The notes beneath the pieces are model-generated. The model worked only from the letters and a program-made list of their open reading frames with translations, was not told where the DNA came from and made no database searches. From NCBI GenBank assembly GCA_002362145.1, contig DETX01000041.1:1-26631 (forward strand): DNA of 26,631 nucleotides, read 5' to 3'. This document shows positions 14,379 to 24,802 of this stretch, one piece after another. Position 1 is the stretch's first letter. Every line of letters begins with the position of its first letter. The translations under genes were made by a program, and so were the position numbers. The stretch comes from Clostridiales bacterium UBA3277. Lineage in GTDB: Bacteria > Bacillota > Clostridia > Oscillospirales > Oscillospiraceae.

Positions 14379-16520
14379 TTAGTCGATATAGGTAAGTTTG
14401 GCCGATGGGCCGAAGGTTCTGGGGGTGACCACGGTCTCGAACTGGACAATGACCCCCTCCTGGTCTCTGGGGATTCCGATGACCTTGCCCTCGCCGAAAA
14501 CCGGATGGAGAACCCGCTTGCCCACCAGCTCGCTGGTCTGGGCCGGGCGGTCGGAAGGGTCCTCGGTTCTGCGGATCTCGGCCAGCGCCCGCTCTTCCAG
14601 GTCCGGGTCCAGGGGGACGGCATAGTCCACGTTTTCCTTTTCGGCATTGAACAAAAAACGGCTGGGATAGCGGAAGGAGCCGTCGTAGTTGGTGCCGGCG
14701 GCGTCGGACAGGAACAGCCGGTCCCGGGCCCGGGTGAAGGCCACATAGCACAGCCGCCGCTCCTCCTCTAATTTTTCCCGGGTGTTGGCCCGCTTGCCGG
14801 GGAAAATGCCCTCGGACATTCCGCACAGAAACACCACCGGAAATTCCAGGCCCTTGGCCGCGTGGATGGTCATCAGCTTCACCGCCTGGGCCCGCTCTGT
14901 CTGGTCCATGTTGGTGAACAGGGCGGCATGGTCCAGGTAATTTCCCAGGGTGACCTCCTCCCCTGCCTTGCGCTCAAAGTCGTAGATGGCCTGCTTCAGC
15001 TCCGCCAGGTTGTCTAAGCGCTCTTCCTCGCCGCAGGAGCGGAGCATATCCTCATAGCCGCTTTCGCCCAGGACTCCGGCCAGCAGATCCGTCAAGTCCA
15101 TCCCGTCGTAGATGGCCCGGTACTTTTCGATCATCCGGACATAGTCCCTGGCCCGGCACCGGCGGAACAGCTCTGTTTCCAGGTTTTGCAGCAGCGCGTC
15201 GTAGAGGCTGCACTGGTTCAGGGCGGCGAATTCCTTCAGCGCGGCGATCCGGGTGCGGCCCACCCCCCGGCGGGGCTCGTTGACGGTGCGCAGGAAGCTG
15301 ATGTCGTCCCCGGCGTAGATCATCCGCAGATAGCACAGCACATCCTTAATTTCCTTGCGCTTGTAAAACTCCACGCCGGAGTAGAGGATGTAGGGGATTT
15401 TATTGCGGATGAGGGATTCCTCCACCGCCCGGGACACATAGTGGGCACGGTAGAGAACCCCTATGGAGGAATAGGGCAATCCGGCCTCGTGGAGGGCTCG
15501 CATATTGGCGGTCATCCAATCGGCCTCCAGGGCGCCGGTCTTGGCGTGGAAATACAGGGGCTTCCGGTCGTCCGGGCGGACGGCGGTGAGCTGCTTTTTG
15601 AGCCGGTCCCGATTCTTATCGATGAGGGCGTTGGAGGCGGTGAGAATCTGGGGGGCTGAGCGGTAGTTGGTGTTTAAGTAGATGGTCTGGACATTTTCAT
15701 GGCGGCTGTCAAATTCCAGAATGAATTTTACGTCCGCGCCCCGCCAGGTATAGATGGTCTGGTCCGGGTCTCCCACCACAAACAGATTTTTATGATAGCC
15801 GGAGAGGATGTCCGCCAGGGCGTACTGGTCCTTGTCGATGTCCTGAAACTCGTCCACCATGATGTATTCCAGGCGCTGCTGCCATTTTTCCCGGGTGGGC
15901 CGGTCCTGCTCCAGGATATACAGAGCAAAGTACACCAGGTCATCAAAATCCAGGCCGTAGCACTTTCGCTGCTCGTAGAAATAGCGGTACATGACCTTAT
16001 CCTTGAGGGTAGTGGCCGAGGCGGCCAGGCCGCTGAGCTTTTCCGGGTCGCCGATCAGGGTCTTTACATACCCCCGGCCGCCCTTGCGCCAGCCGATGTA
16101 GTCCACCGCGTCCCGAATGGTCATGTCCCGGCTGGTGATCCCCAGGTCCTCAAACACCGTGCGCAGCATGGCCTCCTTGTCCTCCTCATCCAGGACGATG
16201 AAGGTGGTGGGATAGCGGACCACATGGCAGTCCTCTTTGAGAAGGCCCACGCAAAAGCCGTGGAAGGTGGTGATCCTGCCCAGGTCCCGGTCCGGAAGGC
16301 TCCTGCGGACCCGTTTTTTCATCTCGGCAGCGGCCTTGTTTGTAAAGGTGACGCAGAGGATATTGGCGGTGGAAATGCCAAGCTGGTCCACCAGGTACAT
16401 ATACCGGGCGGTGAGGGTCTTGGTCTTGCCGGAGCCGGCTCCGGCCACCACCCGGATGCACCCTTCCGTGGTGGTGGCGGCTTTGAGCTGCTCCGGGTTC
16501 AGGCTCTGCAAGTAGTCCAT
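14379..16520 (-). CDS. pcrA: ATP-dependent DNA helicase PcrA/UvrD
   Basis: PcrA is a 3'-5' superfamily 1A helicase used in nucleotide excision repair and in removing RecA filaments and stalled RNA polymerase. The 713-residue product shows the Q motif LNPEQLKA, Walker A AGAGSGKT (26-33), TFTNKAAAEM, VDEFQDID, GDPDQTIYTWRGAD, NYRS, MTIHAAKGLEFPVVF and YVAFTRARDRL. The C terminus has the small domain GKRVLHPVFGEGKVIGI...VIVQFE seen in PcrA, which binds RNA polymerase. The ATG at 16520 (MDYLQSLNPEQ) has AAAGGAA upstream; the frame is open another 85 codons without support. Monocistronic, divergent from the aro operon. Confidence 0.95.
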   Translation of the reverse strand: MDYLQSLNPEQLKAATTTEGCIRVVAGAGSGKTKTLTARYMYLVDQLGISTANILCVTFTNKAAAEMKKRVRRSLPDRDLGRITTFHGFCVGLLKEDCHVVRYPTTFIVLDEEDKEAMLRTVFEDLGITSRDMTIRDAVDYIGWRKGGRGYVKTLIGDPEKLSGLAASATTLKDKVMYRYFYEQRKCYGLDFDDLVYFALYILEQDRPTREKWQQRLEYIMVDEFQDIDKDQYALADILSGYHKNLFVVGDPDQTIYTWRGADVKFILEFDSRHENVQTIYLNTNYRSAPQILTASNALIDKNRDRLKKQLTAVRPDDRKPLYFHAKTGALEADWMTANMRALHEAGLPYSSIGVLYRAHYVSRAVEESLIRNKIPYILYSGVEFYKRKEIKDVLCYLRMIYAGDDISFLRTVNEPRRGVGRTRIAALKEFAALNQCSLYDALLQNLETELFRRCRARDYVRMIEKYRAIYDGMDLTDLLAGVLGESGYEDMLRSCGEEERLDNLAELKQAIYDFERKAGEEVTLGNYLDHAALFTNMDQTERAQAVKLMTIHAAKGLEFPVVFLCGMSEGIFPGKRANTREKLEEERRLCYVAFTRARDRLFLSDAAGTNYDGSFRYPSRFLFNAEKENVDYAVPLDPDLEERALAEIRRTEDPSDRPAQTSELVGKRVLHPVFGEGKVIGIPRDQEGVIVQFETVVTPRTFGPSAKLTYID

Positions 16521-16554
16521 GGCGGCGTTCCTTTCGTCTTTGCGATTTTTCTTT

Positions 16555-16635: not shown

Positions 16636-16664
16636 TTGCAATCCACCGCCTCCCGTGCTATACT
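16636..16664 (+). promoter_or_regulatory. Promoter of the aromatic amino acid operon
   Basis: TTGCAA, exactly 17 nt, TATACT, with TGC just before the -10 (extended -10). This is the best plus-strand promoter in the window. The transcript should start near 16671, about 27 nt before the leader peptide ATG and 190 nt before aroF. Confidence 0.85.
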
Positions 16665-16697
16665 ATGGGCAGTTAATCCATCCCGGAGGAATCTTTC

Positions 16698-16757
16698 ATG
16701 ACCGTCAGCACTGCTTTCTTCTTTTATTCCTATTACTTTTTTATGAGGAAAAAGTAA
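16698..16757 (+). CDS. Aromatic leader peptide (pheL-like) of the aro operon
   Basis: An ORF of 19 codons, MTVSTAFFFYSYYFFMRKK, with a perfect GGAGGA ribosome binding site 7 nt upstream. Eight of nine consecutive codons (16716-16742) are Phe (five) or Tyr (three). There is no Trp codon, which matches an operon that contains tyrA and pheA but no trp gene. It resembles E. coli PheL in design, not in sequence. The peptide itself probably has no function; its translation senses charged tRNA-Phe and tRNA-Tyr. It is too short for gene callers and is likely unannotated. Confidence 0.85.
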   Translation: MTVSTAFFFYSYYFFMRKK

Positions 16758-16807
16758 TAGCGATTTGTGCTGCAAAGATTTTTCGGGAGCTTAAAAGGTA
16801 TTTTAAG

Positions 16808-16838
16808 ACGCCGCACGAATTGCCGTGCGGCGTTCTTT
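16808..16838 (+). terminator. Attenuator terminator upstream of aroF
   Basis: A perfect 10-bp GC-rich stem (ACGCCGCACG / CGTGCGGCGT) with a 6-nt loop, followed by TCTTTTATATTT. It lies 25 nt before the aroF start, between the leader peptide and the aroF ribosome binding site. Confidence 0.9.
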
Positions 16839-16858
16839 TATATTTAGGAGATGTTTTT

Positions 16859-17860
16859 ATGATCGCGATTTTAAAGCACGGCACCACCCCCGCCCAGATG
16901 GAGCATCTGGTAGCCTGGCTCAAGCACATGGACCTGGATGTTCACATCTCTCAGGGCCGTGAGGTCACCATCCTCGGCCTCATCGGCGACACCAGCCGGG
17001 TGGATATGGAGCTTCTCAAAAGCCTGGAAATGGTGGAAACCGTCAAGCGTGTGTCCGAGCCCTACAAGCAGGCCAACCGGAAATTCCACCCCAACGACAC
17101 CATCATCCAGGCCGGCTCCGCCCGGATCGGCGGCGGGTACTTCTCCCTCATTGCCGGTCCCTGCTCCGTGGAATCGGAGGAGCAGATTATTGAGGTTGCC
17201 AAGGCCGTAAAGGCCTCCGGCGCCACCATTCTCCGGGGCGGCGCCTTCAAGCCCCGGACCTCCCCCTATGCCTTCCAGGGCATGAAGGGCGAGGGCATCC
17301 AGCTTCTCGTTAAGGCCAAGCAGGCCACGGGCCTGCCCATTGTCACGGAAATCATGAACATCTCCACTCTGGATCTCTTCGCCGACGTGGATATCATCCA
17401 GGTGGGCGCCAGAAATATGCAGAATTTCGATCTGCTCAAGGAGCTGGGCAAGACGAAAAAGCCCATCCTCTTAAAGCGGGGCCTCGCCAACACCCTGCAG
17501 GAGCTGCTGATGAGCGCCGAATACATTATGAGCGAGGGCAACGACCAGGTCATCCTCTGTGAGCGGGGCATCCGGACCTTTGAGACCGCCACACGGAACA
17601 CCCTGGACCTGTCCGCCGTGCCGGTGCTCCACAATCTGACCCATCTGCCTGTGGTGGTGGACCCCAGCCACGCCACCGGCAAGGCCCACCTGGTGGAGCC
17701 CATGGCCTGCGCCGCCACCGCCGCCGGGGCGGACGGGATCATGATTGAGGTCCACAACAACCCCAGCTGCGCGCTGTGCGACGGTGCCCAGTCCCTGACC
17801 CCGCCCCAATTCGACGATCTGGCCCGGAAGGTCCGCAAGCTCCGTGAGGTCATGGCATGA
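16859..17860 (+). CDS. aroF: 3-deoxy-7-phosphoheptulonate synthase (type I-beta DAHP synthase)
   Basis: Condenses phosphoenolpyruvate and erythrose 4-phosphate into DAHP, the first step of the shikimate pathway. The 333-residue protein has an N-terminal ferredoxin-like regulatory domain (about 1-70) and a TIM barrel with AGPCSVES, GGAFKPRTSPYAFQG, QVGARNMQNF, LLKRG and DPSHATG. This layout is that of the Thermotoga-type I-beta enzymes, in which the N-terminal domain mediates feedback inhibition by Tyr/Phe. The ATG at 16859 has TAGGAGATG upstream; the frame extends to 16655 through the attenuator, which rules out the longer start. First gene of the operon; its stop overlaps the tyrA start (ATGA). 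Confidence 0.97.
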   Translation: MIAILKHGTTPAQMEHLVAWLKHMDLDVHISQGREVTILGLIGDTSRVDMELLKSLEMVETVKRVSEPYKQANRKFHPNDTIIQAGSARIGGGYFSLIAGPCSVESEEQIIEVAKAVKASGATILRGGAFKPRTSPYAFQGMKGEGIQLLVKAKQATGLPIVTEIMNISTLDLFADVDIIQVGARNMQNFDLLKELGKTKKPILLKRGLANTLQELLMSAEYIMSEGNDQVILCERGIRTFETATRNTLDLSAVPVLHNLTHLPVVVDPSHATGKAHLVEPMACAATAAGADGIMIEVHNNPSCALCDGAQSLTPPQFDDLARKVRKLREVMA

Positions 17861-18687
17861 GGGTCGGGATTTTAGGGCTGGGACTCATCGGCGGCTCCCT
17901 GGCCCGGGCCTATGCCCTGGAAGGGCACACCGTCTACGCCAGCGAATTAAATGAGAGTATGCTGTCCTTTGCCATGCTGGCAGGGGCCGTCCACGGAAGG
18001 CTGGACGAAACAACGATTCCTCAGTGCGAGCTGATCCTGCTGGCCATCTACCCCGGCGGCAGCGCCGCCTGGCTGGAAGAAAATGGGCGGTACATCTGCA
18101 AAGATGCCCTGGTGCTGGACTGCTGCGGCACCAAGCGAGAGATCTGCGGCCGGTGCTTCCCGGTGGCGAAGGCCTTCGGCTTTACTTTTGTGGGGGGCCA
18201 CCCCATGGCAGGCTCCCAGTTCTCCGGCTTCAAATACAGCCGGGCGGACCTTTTTAAGGGCGCTCCCATGGTGCTGGTGCCCCCGGTATTCGATGACGCG
18301 GTGCTTTTGGAGCGGGTCCAGACCGCCCTGCGGCCCTGCCATTTTGGCTCCTTCCCGGTGACCACCGCCCAGGAGCACGACAAGATGATCGCCTTTACCT
18401 CCCAGATGCCCCACATCCTCAGCAACGCCTTTATCAAGTCCCCCACGGCAGTCAAGCACAAGGGCTTTTCCGCCGGAAGCTACCGGGATCTGACCCGGGT
18501 CGCCTGGCTGAATCCCCAGATGTGGGCGGAATTATTTCTGGAAAACAAGGACAACGTGCTCTTTGAGCTGGACCAATATCTCAATTCCCTCCGTGCCTAC
18601 CGGGACGCCCTGGCGGCGGAGGATCTTGCGGCCCTCACCGCTCTGCTGGACGAGGGAAAGCGCCGAAAGGAGGAGGTGGACGGATGA
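17857..18687 (+). CDS. tyrA: Prephenate dehydrogenase
   Basis: Oxidatively decarboxylates prephenate to 4-hydroxyphenylpyruvate with NAD(P)+, the committed step to tyrosine. The 276-residue product starts with the Rossmann motif GILGLGLIGGSLARAYALEG and has the family's GGHPMAGSQFSGFKYSRADLFKGAPMVL segment around the active-site His. There is no fused chorismate mutase and no C-terminal ACT domain, so it is the minimal form; mutase activity comes from pheA. It overlaps aroF and aroB by 4 nt each (ATGA), implying coupled translation. Confidence 0.95.
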   Translation: MRVGILGLGLIGGSLARAYALEGHTVYASELNESMLSFAMLAGAVHGRLDETTIPQCELILLAIYPGGSAAWLEENGRYICKDALVLDCCGTKREICGRCFPVAKAFGFTFVGGHPMAGSQFSGFKYSRADLFKGAPMVLVPPVFDDAVLLERVQTALRPCHFGSFPVTTAQEHDKMIAFTSQMPHILSNAFIKSPTAVKHKGFSAGSYRDLTRVAWLNPQMWAELFLENKDNVLFELDQYLNSLRAYRDALAAEDLAALTALLDEGKRRKEEVDG

Positions 18688-19736
18688 ATACCATAACCGT
18701 GAACGCCTCGATGCGCTACGACATCCACATCGGCCCCGGGCTTCTGGGAAGTCTGGGCCAGGCGGTGAGGCAGCTGGGAAACGCCCAAAAAATATGTCTC
18801 GTCAGCGAGAGCACCGTCTTTCCCCGATACGGTCAGGCCGCCCTGGACAGCCTGAAGGACACCGGGTTTTCCGTGGATGCCTTCGTATTTCCTGCCGGGG
18901 AGGAGAGCAAAAACGGGGCTGTTTTCCTGGAATTATTAAACTTTCTCGCTGAGAAGCGGCTCACCCGGTCGGACCGGATTGTGGCGCTGGGCGGCGGCGT
19001 TGTGGGCGATCTGGCAGGGTTTGCCGCCGCCAGCTACCTCCGGGGCATCTCCTTTATTCAGGTTCCCACCACGCTGCTGGCGGCGGTGGATTCCTCCGTG
19101 GGGGGAAAGACCGCCATTGACCTTCCCGCCGGAAAAAATCTGGCGGGGGCCTTCCATCAGCCCAGCCTGGTGCTTTGCGATACGGACACCCTGGATTCCC
19201 TGCCCGGGGATATTTTCCTGGACGGCTCCGCCGAGGTCATCAAATACGGCGTGCTCTACGACGAGGCGCTCTTCTCCCATTTGGAGGAAAGGGGCGTCGC
19301 CTTCCACCGGGAGGCCGTCATCACCCGCTGCGTGGAATTAAAGCGGGACGTGGTGGCTCTGGACGAATTTGACACCGGGGCCCGGATGAAGCTGAATCTG
19401 GGCCACACCGTGGCCCACGGCATTGAGGCAAAGAGCAATTTTACCATCTCCCACGGCCGGGCCGTGGCCATGGGCATGGCCATCATCACCCGGGCGGCCG
19501 TCCAGATGGGGCTGTGTGACAAGGGGGCGGCGGAGCGGATTATCCATGTTTTGAACCAATTCGGCCTGCCCGTTTCCACGGACTTTTCCGCAGACGACCT
19601 GTACACCTACACCCTTTCCGACAAGAAGCGTTCCGGCGGTACGGTGAAGCTCATTGTCCCCCGGGAGATCGGCCGGTGCGATATTGAGCCTGTGGGGGTG
19701 GAAGAACTCAAAGACTGGATAAGGGCGGGACTTTGA
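18684..19736 (+). CDS. aroB: 3-dehydroquinate synthase
   Basis: Converts DAHP to 3-dehydroquinate using NAD+ and a divalent metal, the second shikimate step. The 350-residue product has PAGEESKN, the NAD-binding GGGVVGDLAGFAAASYLRG, PTTLLAAVDSSVGGKTAID, and metal ligands in SAEVIKYG (Glu), NLGHTVAHGIE (His) and SHGRAVAMGM (His). Length matches the family. The start has AAGGAGGAGG upstream and overlaps the tyrA stop. It is one nt from aroA. Confidence 0.97.
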   Translation: MNTITVNASMRYDIHIGPGLLGSLGQAVRQLGNAQKICLVSESTVFPRYGQAALDSLKDTGFSVDAFVFPAGEESKNGAVFLELLNFLAEKRLTRSDRIVALGGGVVGDLAGFAAASYLRGISFIQVPTTLLAAVDSSVGGKTAIDLPAGKNLAGAFHQPSLVLCDTDTLDSLPGDIFLDGSAEVIKYGVLYDEALFSHLEERGVAFHREAVITRCVELKRDVVALDEFDTGARMKLNLGHTVAHGIEAKSNFTISHGRAVAMGMAIITRAAVQMGLCDKGAAERIIHVLNQFGLPVSTDFSADDLYTYTLSDKKRSGGTVKLIVPREIGRCDIEPVGVEELKDWIRAGL

Positions 19737-19737
19737 T

Positions 19738-20937
19738 ATGGACATTCAGATTTTCCCCGGGAAGCTCTCCGGGACCGTCACCGCCATTTCCTCCAAGTCC
19801 CAGGCCCACCGGCTGCTCATCTGCGCCGCCTTCGCGGACAGGCCCACCTTTTTAATCTGCCCCGAGACCAGCCGGGACATGGATGCCACCGCTGGCTGTC
19901 TGGAGGCTCTGGGGGCACGGATTTCCCGGGAGGAGGGCGGATACCGGGTCTGTCCAGTTAAGCGTCCCCCCGCTTCTGCCCTGCTCGGCTGCCTTGACAG
20001 CGGCTCTACGTTGCGCTTTCTTTTGCCGGTGGCGGGGGCTCTGGGGGTGGAGGCCACCTTTCACCTGGCGGGTCGGCTGCCCCAGCGGCCCCTGTCCCCT
20101 TTGTGGGAGGAGATGGAGCGGATGGGCTGCCGCCTCAGCCGGCCCACGGAGGATACGGTCCTCTGCCAGGGCAGGCTCCGGCCGGGTAAATTCACCCTGG
20201 ACGGCGGCGTATCCAGCCAGTTCATTACGGGACTGCTGCTGGCGGCGGCCCTCATCGACGGGCAGTCGGAGATCCAGCTCACGGGAACCGTGGAATCCCG
20301 GCCCTATATCACCATGACCCGGGAGGCCATGGCCATTTTCGGGCGAGAGACCACTGGTTTTCAGGTCCGGGGCGGAACGCCCTTCCGCTCCCCCGGCACG
20401 CTGGCCGTGGAGGGAGATTGGAGCAACGGCGCCTTTTTCCTCGCGGCAAGAGTTCTGGGCAGCGACGTGACTGTGGAGGGTCTCTCCCCCGGCTCCTCTC
20501 AGGGGGACCGGGCGGCGGCAGAGCTTCTGCCGGGACTGCGCCGGGAAGCTCTAACCATTTCCGCGGCGGACATCCCGGACTTAATCCCCATCCTTGCCGT
20601 CACCGCCGCTGTCTTTCATGGGGCGGTATTTACGGACATCCGGCGGCTGCGGCTGAAGGAATCGGACCGGGTGGCCGCTGTGACGGACATGATTGAGGGC
20701 CTGGGCGGGCATGTGGAATCCGACGAAAACACCATGCGGGTCTACGGAACCGGGCTGACCGGCGGGTCCGTGGACAGCCGGAACGACCACCGCATCGCCA
20801 TGGCCGCCGCCATCGCTGCCACGGTCTGCCGTCAAGGCGTGACCATCCGGGGGGCGGAGTGCACCCAGAAATCCTATCCCCGGTTTTGGGAGGAATACGC
20901 GCGTTTAGGAGGCAGATATGAGCAGTACATACGGTGA
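19738..20937 (+). CDS. aroA: 3-phosphoshikimate 1-carboxyvinyltransferase (EPSP synthase)
   Basis: Transfers enolpyruvate from PEP to shikimate 3-phosphate, the sixth step and the glyphosate target. The 399-residue product has SSKSQAHRLL near the N terminus (K20, S21, R25), LDSGSTLRFLLPVAGALG, SSQFITGLLLAAAL and RLRLKESDR, and a conserved NDHRIAMA block near the C terminus. It is somewhat shorter than the usual 420-430 residues. Its start is one nt after the aroB stop, and its last 20 nt overlap aroC. Confidence 0.96.
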   Translation: MDIQIFPGKLSGTVTAISSKSQAHRLLICAAFADRPTFLICPETSRDMDATAGCLEALGARISREEGGYRVCPVKRPPASALLGCLDSGSTLRFLLPVAGALGVEATFHLAGRLPQRPLSPLWEEMERMGCRLSRPTEDTVLCQGRLRPGKFTLDGGVSSQFITGLLLAAALIDGQSEIQLTGTVESRPYITMTREAMAIFGRETTGFQVRGGTPFRSPGTLAVEGDWSNGAFFLAARVLGSDVTVEGLSPGSSQGDRAAAELLPGLRREALTISAADIPDLIPILAVTAAVFHGAVFTDIRRLRLKESDRVAAVTDMIEGLGGHVESDENTMRVYGTGLTGGSVDSRNDHRIAMAAAIAATVCRQGVTIRGAECTQKSYPRFWEEYARLGGRYEQYIR

Positions 20938-22018
20938 CAATCTCAAGCTCTCCATCTTCGGCCAGTCCCACGGTCCGGCCATCGGCGTGGTTCTGGACGG
21001 AATTCCCGCGGGGCTTCCCGTGGACACAGATATCTTGCAGGCGTTTTTAAACCGCCGGGCCCCCGGGCAGAACAGCTGGTCCACTCCCCGGCGGGAGGAG
21101 GACCGGCCGGAAATCCTGGCGGGGATTCTGGACGGCCGCACCACCGGGGCCCCCATCGCGGCCATCATCCGAAACACCAACACCCGCTCCGGGGACTATG
21201 CCCAGCTCCGGGACTGCCCCCGGCCGGGCCACGCCGACTACACCGCCGAAATCAAATACGGCGGCTTTCAGGACGCGGCAGGGGGCGGCCACTTCTCCGG
21301 GCGGCTGACGGCGCCGCTGTGCATCGCAGGAGGGCTGTGCAAGCAGTGGCTCGGGGAGATGGGCATTCAGATTGGGGCCCACATCGCCTCCATCGGCGGC
21401 GTCCCGGACCGGGGCTTTGACCCGCTGGAACCGGAGCTTTCCCAGGTGGGAACGGATTTCCCGGTGCTCTCACGCGACACCGTGGAGAAAATGCACACCG
21501 CCATCGCCCAGGCGGCAGCGGAGGGGGACAGCGTGGGCGGATGCGTAGAGTGTGCCGTCACCGGCCTTCCGGCCGGGGTGGGAGAGCCCATGTTCGGCGG
21601 CGTGGAGAGTAAAATCGCCGCCATTGTCTACGGAATTCCCGCCGTAAAGGCCCTGGACTTCGGCATAGGCGCCCAGGCGGCAGACCTCCGGGGCAGTCAG
21701 TGCAACGACCCCTATACCTTGGAGGACGGGAAAATCCGCACCCTTACCAACCGCGCGGGGGGAATTCTGGGCGGAATTACCAACGGAATGCCGGTGGTGT
21801 TCCGGGTGACCCTGAAACCCACGCCCTCCATTTCCCGGCCCCAGCAGAGCGTCTCCCTATGCCGCATGGAGCCGCAGGAGCTGAGCGTCAAAGGCCGCCA
21901 CGACCCCTGCATCGTACCCAGGGCCGTGCCGGTGGTGGAAGCGGCGGCGGCCATTGCCATTTATGATCTGATTCTGGGAAACACCCAGACAACAAGGAGG
22001 AAATCACCATGGAATTAG
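20918..22018 (+). CDS. aroC: Chorismate synthase
   Basis: Makes chorismate from EPSP with reduced FMN, the last common step. The 366-residue product has STYGDNLKLSIFGQSHGPAIG at the N terminus, RPGHADYT, the DAAGGGHFSGRLTAP block and the C-terminal GRHDPCIVPRAVPVVEA signature with its conserved His and Asp. The start is inside the aroA end, with AGGAGG 5 nt before the ATG. It overlaps pheA by 10 nt. Confidence 0.97.
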   Translation: MSSTYGDNLKLSIFGQSHGPAIGVVLDGIPAGLPVDTDILQAFLNRRAPGQNSWSTPRREEDRPEILAGILDGRTTGAPIAAIIRNTNTRSGDYAQLRDCPRPGHADYTAEIKYGGFQDAAGGGHFSGRLTAPLCIAGGLCKQWLGEMGIQIGAHIASIGGVPDRGFDPLEPELSQVGTDFPVLSRDTVEKMHTAIAQAAAEGDSVGGCVECAVTGLPAGVGEPMFGGVESKIAAIVYGIPAVKALDFGIGAQAADLRGSQCNDPYTLEDGKIRTLTNRAGGILGGITNGMPVVFRVTLKPTPSISRPQQSVSLCRMEPQELSVKGRHDPCIVPRAVPVVEAAAAIAIYDLILGNTQTTRRKSPWN

Positions 22019-23151
22019 AGCAGCTTCGTCAGGAAATCGACCAGATTGACCAGGAGCTTGTGAAGCTCTTCGGCCAGCGGATGGATGTGTCCGCCCGGAT
22101 CGCGGACTATAAGCGGGAAAACGCCATGCCCATTTTCGTCCCCGCCCGGGAGCGCTCCAAGCTCCAGGAGGTGGCAAAGCTGGCAGGTCCGGATATGGCC
22201 AACTACACCCGGGTCCTCTACTCCATGCTCTTTGAGCTCAGCCGGAGTTATCAGAGCAAGCGCCTTGGGAAGGTCAGCCCCCTCAGCCAGCGGATCACCG
22301 AGGCCATTGAGCATACGCCCAGGCTCTTCCCCCAGGCTCCCATGGTGGCCTGCCAGGGTGTGGAGGGGGCCTACTCCCAGATTGCCTGTGAGCACATTTT
22401 TAAAGACCCCTTCATTCTCTACTTCAAGAATTTTGAGTCCGTTTTCTCCGCCATCGACCAGGGTATGTGCCAGTACGGCATTCTGCCCATCGAAAACTCC
22501 ACCGCCGGGTCCGTGAAAAAGGTCTATGATCTGATGCAGAAGCACAACTTCTCCATCGTGCGCTCCTTCCGGCTGAAGGTGGACCACAACCTTCTGGTCA
22601 ATCCCGGCACCCGGCTGGAGGACATCCGGGAGGTCTACTCCCACGAGCAGGCCATCGGCCAGTGCGGCGACTTTTTGCAGAGCCTGACCGGCGCCAACGT
22701 CATCCCTGTAGGCAACACCGCCATGGCGGCGGAGATGGTGTCCATCTCCGGCCGGAAGGATGTGGCCGCGCTGAGCAGCCGGGCCTGCGCCGAGCTATAC
22801 AATCTTGACTGCCTGGCCGCCTCGGTCCAGGACAAGGGCAACAACCGGACCCGCTTTTTGTGCATCAGCAAGAATTTGGAAATCTACCCCGGTTCCGACC
22901 GGACCAGCATCATGATGATCCTGCCCCACCGCCCCGGCTCCCTGTACAAGGTCCTGGCAAGGCTCTACACCCTGGGCATCAACGTAACCAAACTGGAATC
23001 CAGGCCCATTCCCGACCGGGAGTTTGAGTTCATGTTCTATTTCGATTTGGAAACCTCCATCTACTCCGAGGAGTTCGTACAGCTCATGTGCGAATTGGAC
23101 GAATTGTGTGAGGAATTCAAATACTTCGGCAGCTATACAGAGGTGGTCTGA
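22009..23151 (+). CDS. pheA: Bifunctional chorismate mutase / prephenate dehydratase (P-protein)
   Basis: Turns chorismate into prephenate and then phenylpyruvate, the committed branch to phenylalanine. The 380-residue product has an AroQ-type mutase domain (about 1-90, with LRQEIDQIDQELVKLFGQR and YKRENAMPI), a dehydratase domain (about 108-285, with GVEGAYSQ, LPIENSTAGSV, YSHEQAIGQC and the catalytic NRTRF), and a C-terminal ACT domain (about 300-380) with the Phe-binding ESRP motif. Feedback inhibition by Phe is therefore likely. Its mutase also supplies prephenate for TyrA. The ribosome binding site AAGGAGG lies in the aroC end; the stop TGA shares one base with the next ATG. Confidence 0.96.
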   Translation: MELEQLRQEIDQIDQELVKLFGQRMDVSARIADYKRENAMPIFVPARERSKLQEVAKLAGPDMANYTRVLYSMLFELSRSYQSKRLGKVSPLSQRITEAIEHTPRLFPQAPMVACQGVEGAYSQIACEHIFKDPFILYFKNFESVFSAIDQGMCQYGILPIENSTAGSVKKVYDLMQKHNFSIVRSFRLKVDHNLLVNPGTRLEDIREVYSHEQAIGQCGDFLQSLTGANVIPVGNTAMAAEMVSISGRKDVAALSSRACAELYNLDCLAASVQDKGNNRTRFLCISKNLEIYPGSDRTSIMMILPHRPGSLYKVLARLYTLGINVTKLESRPIPDREFEFMFYFDLETSIYSEEFVQLMCELDELCEEFKYFGSYTEVV

Positions 23152-24377
23152 TGAACTGCGGTCTGCTGGGACGGAAGCTGGGACACAGCTACTCCCCCCA
23201 AATTCACGGATATCTGGGGGATTATTCCTACCGCCTCTTCGAAAAGGAGCCGGAGGAGCTGGCGGATTTTCTGAGGCACGGAGATTTTACCGGGCTGAAT
23301 GTGACCATCCCCTATAAAAAAGAGGTCATCCCCTTCCTGGACGACCTGTCGGACACCGCCAGGAAGATGGAATCTGTCAACACCATCCTCCGGCGGAAGG
23401 ACGGAACCCTCTTCGGCCACAATTCCGACTACTTCGGTTTCTGCTCCCTGGTGCGCCACAGCGGGATGGGCCCCGCCGGGAAGAAGGTTTTGGTGCTGGG
23501 CAGCGGCGGGACCTCCGCCATGGCCCAGTGCGCCCTGACGGACATGGGGGCCCGGGTCATTGTCATTTCCCGGTCGGGCCCGGACAACTACGGAAATCTG
23601 GAGCGGCACGCCGACGCCGCCATGGTGGTCAACGCCACGCCCCTGGGGATGTACCCGAATGTGGGGACGGCGGCCCTGGACCTGAGGGCCTTTCCCAGGC
23701 TGGAAGGGGTGCTGGATGTGGTCTACAATCCCGCCCGGACGGCGCTGCTGCTCCAGGCGGAGCAGTTACATATTCCCTGCGCCAACGGACTGTGGATGCT
23801 GGTGGCCCAGGCGAAGGAAGCCGCGGAGTATTTTACCGGCAGGGCCATAGACGACAGCGTCATTGAAAAAATCTATGGCAGACTCTCCGCTCAGATGGAA
23901 AACATCGTCCTCATCGGGATGCCCGGCTGCGGAAAGAGCACCGTGGGGGCCATTCTGGCGGAAAAAACCGGGCGCACCCTTCTGGACGCCGACGAGCGAA
24001 TCTGTGAGCTGGCCGGAAAATCCATCCCGGAGATTTTTGCCCAGGATGGGGAAGCGGCCTTCCGGCAGTGGGAGACTGAGGCCCTCCGGGAATTCGGGAT
24101 GCAGTCCGGGCGCATCCTCGCCACCGGCGGCGGCTGCGTCACCCAGAGCCGAAACTATCCCCTGCTCCACCAAAATGGACGAATTTTCTACCTCACCCGG
24201 GATTTGGACCGGCTGCCCACCGACGGAAGGCCCCTGTCCCAGGCCAATCCTCTGGCCGAGCTGTACGCAGCCAGGAAGGGGCTGTACGAGGCGTTCGCGG
24301 ACATGACGGTTGACAACAACGGCCGCGCTCAGGACACGGCAGAAACGATTCTGAACGCTTTGGAGGGATCATTATGA
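23151..24377 (+). CDS. aroE-aroK: Fused shikimate dehydrogenase / shikimate kinase
   Basis: One 408-residue chain carries two consecutive-pathway enzymes. Residues about 1-245 are AroE: GRKLGHSYSPQIHG, GLNVTIPYKK (catalytic Lys), GHNSDYFGF, NADP-binding VLGSGGTSAMAQ and NATPLGMYP. Residues about 250-408 are AroK: Walker A GMPGCGKST, LDADERICELAGKSIPEIF (shikimate-binding Asp), ATGGGCV and DGRPLS. AroE is shorter than typical stand-alone enzymes (270-290). There is no stop between the domains. An internal Met (QMENIVLIG) sits at the junction and could in principle give free AroK, but no strong ribosome binding site is evident. Starts 1 nt inside pheA; overlaps aroQ by 4 nt. Confidence 0.94.
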   Translation: MNCGLLGRKLGHSYSPQIHGYLGDYSYRLFEKEPEELADFLRHGDFTGLNVTIPYKKEVIPFLDDLSDTARKMESVNTILRRKDGTLFGHNSDYFGFCSLVRHSGMGPAGKKVLVLGSGGTSAMAQCALTDMGARVIVISRSGPDNYGNLERHADAAMVVNATPLGMYPNVGTAALDLRAFPRLEGVLDVVYNPARTALLLQAEQLHIPCANGLWMLVAQAKEAAEYFTGRAIDDSVIEKIYGRLSAQMENIVLIGMPGCGKSTVGAILAEKTGRTLLDADERICELAGKSIPEIFAQDGEAAFRQWETEALREFGMQSGRILATGGGCVTQSRNYPLLHQNGRIFYLTRDLDRLPTDGRPLSQANPLAELYAARKGLYEAFADMTVDNNGRAQDTAETILNALEGSL

Positions 24378-24802
24378 AAATTCTGGTATTAAACGGACCG
24401 AATCTCAATATGCTGGGGATTCGGGAGCCGGGGATCTACGGAAAGAGCACCTTCTCGGACCTGCTGAATCTGCTGGCGGACACAGCCCGGGAGGAGGGGG
24501 TGGAGATTGAACAGTTCCAATCCAACCACGAGGGGGCTCTGGTGGATAAAATTCAGGAGGCCTACGGAAAATTTGACGGCATTGTCATCAACCCCGCGGC
24601 CTACACCCACACCTCCGTGGCGATTCTGGATGCCCTGAAAGCCGTATCCATTCCGGCGGTGGAGGTTCACATCTCCAATGTGGACGCCCGGGAGCCCTTC
24701 CGGCAGGTATCTTATGCGGGCCTGGCCTGTGTCAAGACCATCAAAGGGCACGGACTTGAGGGGTATCGGGAGGCCATCGTGTACCTCAAGGAGCATTTCT
24801 GA
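24374..24802 (+). CDS. aroQ: 3-dehydroquinate dehydratase, type II
   Basis: Dehydrates 3-dehydroquinate to 3-dehydroshikimate, the third step. The 142-residue product has GPNLNMLGIREPGIYG (active-site Tyr and the flexible loop Arg), NPAAYTHTSVAILDAL, VEVHISNVDAREPFRQVSY (catalytic His region), all diagnostic of the small dodecameric type II enzymes. Last gene of the operon; the ATGA overlap with aroEK and the terminator 13 nt after the stop bound the transcript. Confidence 0.97.
   Translation: MKILVLNGPNLNMLGIREPGIYGKSTFSDLLNLLADTAREEGVEIEQFQSNHEGALVDKIQEAYGKFDGIVINPAAYTHTSVAILDALKAVSIPAVEVHISNVDAREPFRQVSYAGLACVKTIKGHGLEGYREAIVYLKEHF

Follow-up and report, generated by a model that had tools for sequence, protein, structure and literature searches.

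A putative Phe/Tyr leader-peptide attenuator upstream of a clostridial shikimate operon, and related leaders before other aromatic genes

Described attenuators and the operon under study

Leader-peptide attenuation is a mechanism already known from trpL and pheL. T-boxes read tRNA directly, without translation, and in T-box regulons one conserved RNA scaffold stands before many pathway genes, its codons naming the amino acid. Several further leaders are described in the accessible text of the papers cited here. The uORFC-13-1 motif joins an upstream ORF with Phe codon(s) to a terminator before aroF, and Phe-dependent attenuation was proposed for it; its 24 representatives come from Acholeplasma and environmental sequences only and hold at least one Phe codon, the accessible text mentioning no Tyr (PMC8632094). 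Histidine leader-peptide attenuators are predicted in the B. cereus group, Eubacteriales and Erysipelotrichales (PMC9413887), for bacilli also in PMC2965389, and a His-dependent leader before hisZ of Clostridium difficile is credited to an attenuation survey by Lopatovskaya et al. in PMC4833913. A leucine-rich attenuator peptide was proposed, with suppressor mutants, for S. aureus ilv-leu (PMC5794164), and work on Actinobacteria is also among the nearest accounts (PMC1262725). An earlier, sequence-only reading of the DNA studied here had assumed that Firmicutes mostly use T-boxes or TRAP, which is too strong, his, ilv-leu and Acholeplasma aroF leaders being in print as far as these texts go (PMC9413887, PMC2965389, PMC5794164, PMC8632094). 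For a Clostridia-wide family of Phe/Tyr leader attenuators we found no account in the open literature, outside which most subscription papers lie.

The window, by which we mean the whole 26,631-nt stretch that was analysed, carries a leader upstream of aroF that resembles E. coli pheL-pheA and trpL in its runs of sensed codons, its 1:2, 2:3 and 3:4 pairings and its intrinsic terminator, and that behaves in the same direction as these two when cut RNA is folded. Unlike them, it would read Phe and Tyr together, precedes a whole shikimate operon and belongs to another phylum; the Rfam Phe_leader model (RF01859) found no detectable homology (13.6 bits, cut-off 55, E 9). With uORFC-13-1 it shares, by comparison of descriptions only, an upstream ORF with F codons and a terminator before aroF. 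The His attenuators described in the accessible texts are likewise leader-peptide attenuators in Firmicutes, but they differ in having histidine codons and his genes, as S. aureus ilv-leu does, on the same footing, in having Leu/Ile codons and another operon. Unlike a T-box, the element holds an ORF, and it matches no T-box model. The mechanism is old; what is new is the lineage, the double specificity, the way a single scaffold serves an aromatic regulon through exchange of its codons, and the occurrence of split copies, some Tyr-rich and others Tyr-poor.

The sequence-only reading had proposed a Phe/Tyr leader-peptide attenuator, and this proposal is supported: the ORF and the pairing are conserved and the codons follow the genes. 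On these comparisons the leader is very probably a ribosome-mediated attenuator, with charged Phe- and Tyr-tRNA as its signal and the entire shikimate/Phe/Tyr operon under its control. Classical Phe/Tyr attenuation would then reach a large group of gut anaerobes, in which it would explain the control of the shikimate operon. The leader precedes eight genes, aroF-tyrA-aroB-aroA-aroC-pheA-aroEK-aroQ, which overlap or nearly abut up to position 24802; a further gene diverges from them.

16859..17860, plus strand: aroF, DAHP synthase (Bsub type); NCBIfam, above cut-off
17857..18687, plus strand: tyrA, prephenate dehydrogenase; best NCBIfam matches, below cut-offs
18684..19736, plus strand: aroB; NCBIfam, above cut-off
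19738..20937, plus strand: aroA; best NCBIfam match, below cut-off
20918..22018, plus strand: aroC; NCBIfam, above cut-off
22009..23151, plus strand: pheA, chorismate mutase-prephenate dehydratase; best NCBIfam match, just below cut-off
23151..24377, plus strand: aroE-aroK fusion; best NCBIfam matches, below cut-offs
24374..24802, plus strand: aroQ, type II dehydroquinate dehydratase; NCBIfam, above cut-off
14379..16526, minus strand: divergent UvrD/PcrA-like helicase gene; best match, below cut-off

In the closest relative found, genome G001 (AroF 89% identical), ORFs of like size and order lie 3' of its own leader, the first four confirmed by similarity (L001).

Anatomy of the leader and its predicted switch

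Upstream of aroF a promoter, a GGAGGA, the leader ORF, a terminator and then the Shine-Dalgarno (SD) sequence of aroF itself follow one another.

16636..16664, plus strand: sigma-A-type promoter, TTGCAA, 17 nt, extended -10 TGcTATACT; sequence scan
16671..16844, plus strand: predicted leader RNA, its start taken from the -10 and its end from the U tract
16685..16690, plus strand: ribosome-binding site GGAGGA of the leader ORF, read from the sequence, 7 nt before the ATG at 16698
16698..16757, plus strand: leader peptide ORF, MTVSTAFFFYSYYFFMRKK and stop; 19 codons, 8 Phe/Tyr, sensor F/Y codons 16716-16742
16730..16760, plus strand: hairpin 1:2a, YYFF codons 16730-16741 with the stop region 16749-16760; 19-sequence alignment
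16706..16772, plus strand: pairing 1:2b, CAGCAC 16706-16711 with GTGCTG 16767-16772; predicted fold
16760..16773, plus strand: strand 2, 5' part of the antiterminator, GCGATTTGTGCTGC; sequence and alignment
16810..16823, plus strand: strand 3, 3' part of the antiterminator, overlapping the 5' arm of the terminator; sequence and alignment
16807..16844, plus strand: intrinsic terminator (16807-16834) and U tract; sequence scan and alignment

The extended -10 promoter, the leader peptide and its ribosome-binding site, all named in the sequence-only reading, were borne out from the coordinates, and a recount returned the competing pairing of 16760-16773 with 16810-16823 as it had been claimed: 13 of the 14 positions form standard pairs, including two G-U, and U16771/C16812 is the sole mismatch. 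The terminator just before aroF stood as well; its length, given as 10 bp, did not, since we count 11 pairs, one G-T among them, followed by CTTTTATATT. Hairpin 1:2a is absent from that reading: in it the codons TAT TAC TTT TTT are themselves base-paired with AAAAAGTAATAG around the stop codon. A terminator-type hairpin alone is not beyond chance (1 found vs a shuffle mean of 1.2), and the scanned 1-kb stretch held 1 promoter-like site vs a shuffle mean of 0.4. Of 5000 dinucleotide shuffles of the window's 320-nt upstream region, 3 contained an ORF that follows an SD and has 8 or more F/Y in 14 residues. For the leader RNA (16671-16842) the predicted folding energy is -58.4 kcal/mol (z -5.0).

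Sequence comparison establishes the ORF, the terminator and the competing pairing, the fact that they are conserved, and the agreement between codons and genes; from this arrangement we infer translation of the leader, stalling, readthrough and a timing of ribosome and polymerase. With Phe and Tyr plentiful, the ribosome would reach the stop codon and cover the start of strand 2; strand 3 would then pair with strand 4 and transcription would end before aroF. With Phe or Tyr scarce, it would stall on the F/Y run and leave strand 2 free, and free strand 2 would capture strand 3 before strand 4 is made, RNA polymerase then reading into aroF. In an untranslated leader, strand 1 would hold strand 2, through pairing 1:2b in the modelled fold, and termination would be the default. 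If the leader works as drawn, these Firmicutes would need coordinated timing of ribosome and RNA polymerase, within leaders at least. According to the accessible text of one account, transcription can outrun translation in B. subtilis (PMC7858274, citing Johnson et al. 2020), so that widely distributed ribosome-read attenuators in Clostridia would make the timing there directly testable.

The switch was followed on paper in two regimes, the full-length RNA at equilibrium and RNA cut before the 3' terminator arm, which mimics ongoing transcription. At full-length equilibrium the window shows no switch, the terminator winning in every ribosome state (0.91-0.97 when stalled), and the terminator is also dominant in most relatives; only 10 of 69 loci switch (terminator below 0.2 in some stalled state and above 0.8 at the stop). 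In cut RNA, upstream sequence captured strand 3 with a mean probability of 0.76 for a ribosome stalled at the best F/Y codon, as against 0.33 for one at the stop codon and 0.50 for an untranslated leader. In 63 of 69 loci the stalled value was higher than the stop value by over 0.2, and the reverse never occurred; the E. coli controls, treated alike, gave 0.62 vs 0.00 (trpL) and 0.84 vs 0.00 (pheL). When the stretch from the F/Y run to the terminator, strand 2 included, was shuffled, the mean stalled-minus-stop difference fell from 0.41 to 0.11, and 29 of 69 loci ranked within 2 of 40 in this control, about 5 being expected. For the window alone the control is weak: strand 3 was captured at 0.77 when stalled and still at 0.48 at the stop position, and 6 of 40 shuffles gave as large a difference. 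Among 16 close sequences, stop-state capture stayed near 0.4 with the assumed ribosome edge at +10 to +18 and was 0.66 at +8. For the claim that a ribosome at the stop codon masks strand 2 while one stalled on the F/Y codons does not, the folds of cut RNA speak in favour and those at full-length equilibrium against, save in the 10 of 69 loci that switch; folding with and without ribosome masking likewise yields the switch in the first regime and, for the window, none in the second.

The terminator and the pairings might instead answer to a T-box, a riboswitch or an RNA-binding protein, the F/Y ORF being incidental. T-box matches abound in these genomes (12 related ones have 5-15 each at E 0.001), a T-box-like motif was seen by eye at three leaderless aroF regions (L228, L231, L236), and there is a weak PyrR match of 28.3 bits. 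That match is far below the cut-off of 54, and neither the window nor any of 20 further upstream regions gave an Rfam match at or above the gathering score; ten whole loci of relatives yielded only an FMN riboswitch, elsewhere in L018. Moreover, the conserved F/Y content follows the gene, and a ligand-binding RNA would have no need of this; we regard such a sensor as highly improbable. On Rfam scores we rejected the T-box reading (RF00230, no match in the window) along with the riboswitch and PyrR ones. In G001 a T-box match precedes pheS (E 1.1e-16, below the Rfam gathering score); in that genome a T-box at pheS and the leader at the aro operon would thus both read Phe-tRNA status.

Conservation of the leader among relatives

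Taking 80 aroF loci from named records, with a rule of at least 5 F/Y in 14 residues within 320 nt upstream, we found an F/Y-rich leader ORF upstream of aroF in 69 of them as well as in the window; 11 close loci had none by the rules used. A stricter rule, at least 7 F/Y in 14 residues with an SD motif required, selected 46 of 81 regions vs 2 of 1620 dinucleotide shuffles; of 433 control regions, taken from these loci but lying in front of other long ORFs, none qualified. In 16 of 19 close sequences the leader ATG is preceded, at a distance of 28-33 nt, by an extended -10-like TGnTAnnnT. The sequence-only reading hinged on whether the F/Y run and the antiterminator pairing persist in relatives; both are conserved.

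The same anatomy would suffice for a general attenuator of translation status, in which any slow ribosome leads to readthrough with no Phe/Tyr specificity, and antibiotic-responsive leaders of such a sort exist in Firmicutes, as far as the accessible literature on them goes. When single residues were counted (at least 4 in 14), however, exactly Phe (36 of 81 regions) and Tyr (31 of 81) were enriched among the 20 amino acids, Leu coming next with 6, and in split operons the matching one of the two is enriched (below). A sensor of this unspecific kind is therefore very unlikely.

In wider samples of the family and the class, regions were picked from longer lists, and at least L083, L084, L090, L126, L136 and L139 are contigs of the first 80 loci, as is L321 from the model search described below. 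Within the family of G001, inspection showed an F/Y leader in 19 of 20 regions upstream of aroF; these 20 were picked from the best 21 with one skipped, and at least three of the 19 are contigs already in the 80-locus set. An even sample of the class had AroF at E 1e-60 in 99 of its 138 genomes, and 80 upstream regions, hand-picked from the matches and in some cases several per genome, held an aromatic-rich leader by rule 43 times vs 17 in 1600 shuffles; of the 37 others, 12 apparently lie behind another gene and 25 fit neither description. Among the 30 best loci of a phylum sample, 7 have a leader by rule, one being G001 itself, and two more (L219, L223) have one by eye. Six F/Y leaders with aroF (L015, L020, L038, L040, L060, L069) sit on contigs labelled Treponema, Treponemataceae, Thermoguttaceae, Lentisphaerae and Kiritimatiellae, which points either to horizontal transfer or to mis-binned contigs. 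The leader of L029, some 100-196 nt upstream of aroF in an operon aroF-tyrA-aroA-aroC, also contains Trp: MKNSNCTANKIWYWYYFAMNDSKVSLQCTEL.

An alignment (A1) of 19 close sequences, chosen from the window and the 80 loci, was used to follow the pairings. The terminator covaries strongly and the remaining pairings weakly: 89.5% of cells are paired in 3:4, with both-side changes at 9 of 11 pairs; 99.1% in 1:2a, with both-side changes at 2 pairs; and 83% in 2:3 (12 of 14 pairs counted), with both-side changes at 5 pairs, a covariation that exceeds its own shuffles only modestly. The lone 2:3 mismatch position is mismatched in all 19 sequences; our guess is that this strand-2 base is perhaps kept to pair with strand 1. 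In 32 of 70 loci the pairing of the leader's first half with the region 3' of the F/Y run ranks 10 or better among 200 shuffles, where about 4 such loci are expected; the window, at rank 55, shows no such excess. Sequestration of the Shine-Dalgarno sequence by the distal leader, as in the window's fold, was rejected as unconserved, such a rank being reached in only 3 of 18 sequences.

Leader codons, downstream genes and a wider family of leaders

The sequence-only reading had matched the Phe and Tyr codons to an operon with pheA and tyrA, and across leaders, as in split copies, the codons do follow the downstream genes. Among 100 leaders the Tyr fraction was 0.54 with tyrA next (n=78) vs 0.26 without (n=22; Mann-Whitney p 2.3e-9). 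This comparison omitted leaderless loci and three loci with too little downstream sequence (L015, L045, L066), counted L069, with pheA between aroF and tyrA, as having tyrA, and drew on a non-random subset of 20 class-sample rows chosen for tyrA or pheA apart from aroF or for absence of tyrA. Two loci without tyrA adjoining aroF (L266, L267) are exceptions, with 5 Tyr among 11 F+Y.

In seven family genomes, each with two AroF copies, the operon was interpreted as split. Their six aroF-tyrA copies all have Tyr-rich leaders (Tyr fraction 0.62-1.0), such as MKQSRNYGYSYYRYYDSGIL, and their six aroF-aroB-aroA copies all have Tyr-poor ones (0-0.33); within the stretch fetched, pheA is in view in five of the latter and tyrA in none. 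Five of these six leaders are Phe-rich, such as MTRRSLTTASFLFSFGWARFMGTGFFGMGK, the exception being L254 with only 2 Phe, 1 Tyr and 2 Trp. No leader was seen at L116, the second aroF copy of G038, and the region of the other AroF copy of G068 ends with its contig. The split copies fall into two clades and may stem from one duplication. Such duplicated operons would amount to a natural experiment on codon-specific sensing.

Kinship weakens the correlation between codons and genes. The AroF tree needs 8 gene-order changes, and only 4 independent pairs lie on well-supported (starred) branches; pairs going the expected way numbered 2.4, 3.4 and 3.1 vs 0.1, 0.1 and 0.0 the opposite way at thresholds 0.35, 0.40 and 0.45. 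The phylogenetically controlled match is not significant because the independent pairs are too few. Four genomes (G014, G015, G027, G056) have a further AroF copy behind trp-like genes. At L104-L107 the second copy lies directly 3' of an apparent trpC or trpF, recognised by eye, and this Trp-linked paralogue coexists with the Phe/Tyr-leader copy in the same genomes.

A covariance model (R1) built from the 19 aroF leaders of A1 matched 67 of 150 family genomes at E 0.01 and 4 of 149 in the phylum sample at E 0.001, including G001 itself and one more before aroF-tyrA. It recovers leaders outside its training set (L024, 79.7 bits; L074, 78.8 bits). We examined 48 distinct sites, namely the best match of 30 genomes and 20 chosen second or weaker sites, minus two duplicates. 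R1 prefers F/Y-rich leaders because F/Y codons are in the model; the downstream genes are not. Of these sites, 32 precede aroF. Two precede pheA and have Phe-rich leaders, MKSNIFAAEFTFFYFGHTR and MSFTFAAEFTFFYFCKKK; two precede aroB-aroA, with a looser codon fit (MYLSGYSSAFIFIFTFTKRFS; MENKISAAKKYWRRFGFTMTVVRLICDA); and one, with Trp codons in its leader (MNRTLGTAFYWFWFSFTDSFGKVDLRCDEA), precedes the gene of a TrpB-like enzyme. Anaerobes can synthesise Phe from phenylacetate, and two sites precede a phenylacetate-CoA ligase-like (PaaK-like) gene, below the NCBIfam cut-off, with the leader MFAALAVFMFFFAFYFTNREVKAICAAAKG, the second gene being a fragment 75.5% identical to the first. Two sites precede a TrpX-like binding protein gene (below cut-off) and two a sodium symporter gene of unassigned substrate, the symporter leaders being MRNIVSMACEYYYSYYFRNNKSDL and MNTRNTAANRYWFWFYFTM. 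Codon content suits the downstream gene in the pheA, ligase, TrpB-like and symporter leaders. The remaining five (L309, L317, L320, L326, L327; 28.6-41.3 bits) stand before no recognised aromatic gene. By rule they lack a leader, although L309 gains one if TTG/GTG starts are allowed, and none of the eight aro proteins of the window is matched there.

It is fairly likely that a homologous leader RNA was copied across an aromatic regulon of Oscillospirales-type Clostridia and that its specificity was reset by exchanging Phe, Tyr and Trp codons in the ORF; aroF operons, pheA, aroB-aroA and the PaaK-like, TrpB-like, TrpX-like and sodium symporter genes would be its members. If true, the logic of a T-box regulon would here be carried out by ribosome stalling, in bacteria that also have T-boxes. 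The TrpX-like ABC binding proteins (L303/L312, L315) and sodium symporters (L292, L324) behind F/Y(/W) leaders are candidate Phe/Tyr/Trp importers of gut Clostridia.

The F/Y run might also be a by-product of a U-rich hairpin arm, the hairpin mattering and the reading frame not. Indeed, TATTACTTTTT is paired with AAAAAGTAATA in 99.1% of cells of A1, so the codons are also under RNA constraint. The Tyr/Phe proportions nevertheless follow gene content, and Trp codons stand before the TrpB-like gene. Split-genome leaders, moreover, are poorly found by R1: only one of the four loci given (L246-L249) was matched, the Tyr-type leader of L249 (21.1 bits, E 0.0068, the match starting exactly at the leader ATG), with no match in L246, L247 and L248. 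These missed or barely found leaders are still aromatic-rich in frame with their ATG. On these grounds together a mere by-product is extremely unlikely beside the attenuator that reads Phe and Tyr codons.

Leaderless aroF genes carry other elements. The T-box-like motif upstream of three of them (L228, L231, L236; by eye) reads GGGTGGTACCRCG, another sensor in the same place. Sequences resembling GTAGTACGGTAGGA, often in tandem and in some loci before a short terminator-like hairpin, were seen by eye upstream of leaderless aroF at L174, L193, L195, L196, L198, L224, L229-L233, L237, L239, L240, L243 and L245; given their 5-nt gaps, they do not look TRAP-like. At L045, L059 and L076, AAAGC-type repeats, 8-10 nt apart, lie just behind the -10 and 30-100 nt upstream of leaderless aroF, with similar repeats in L072; they look like an operator or an RNA-binding repeat.
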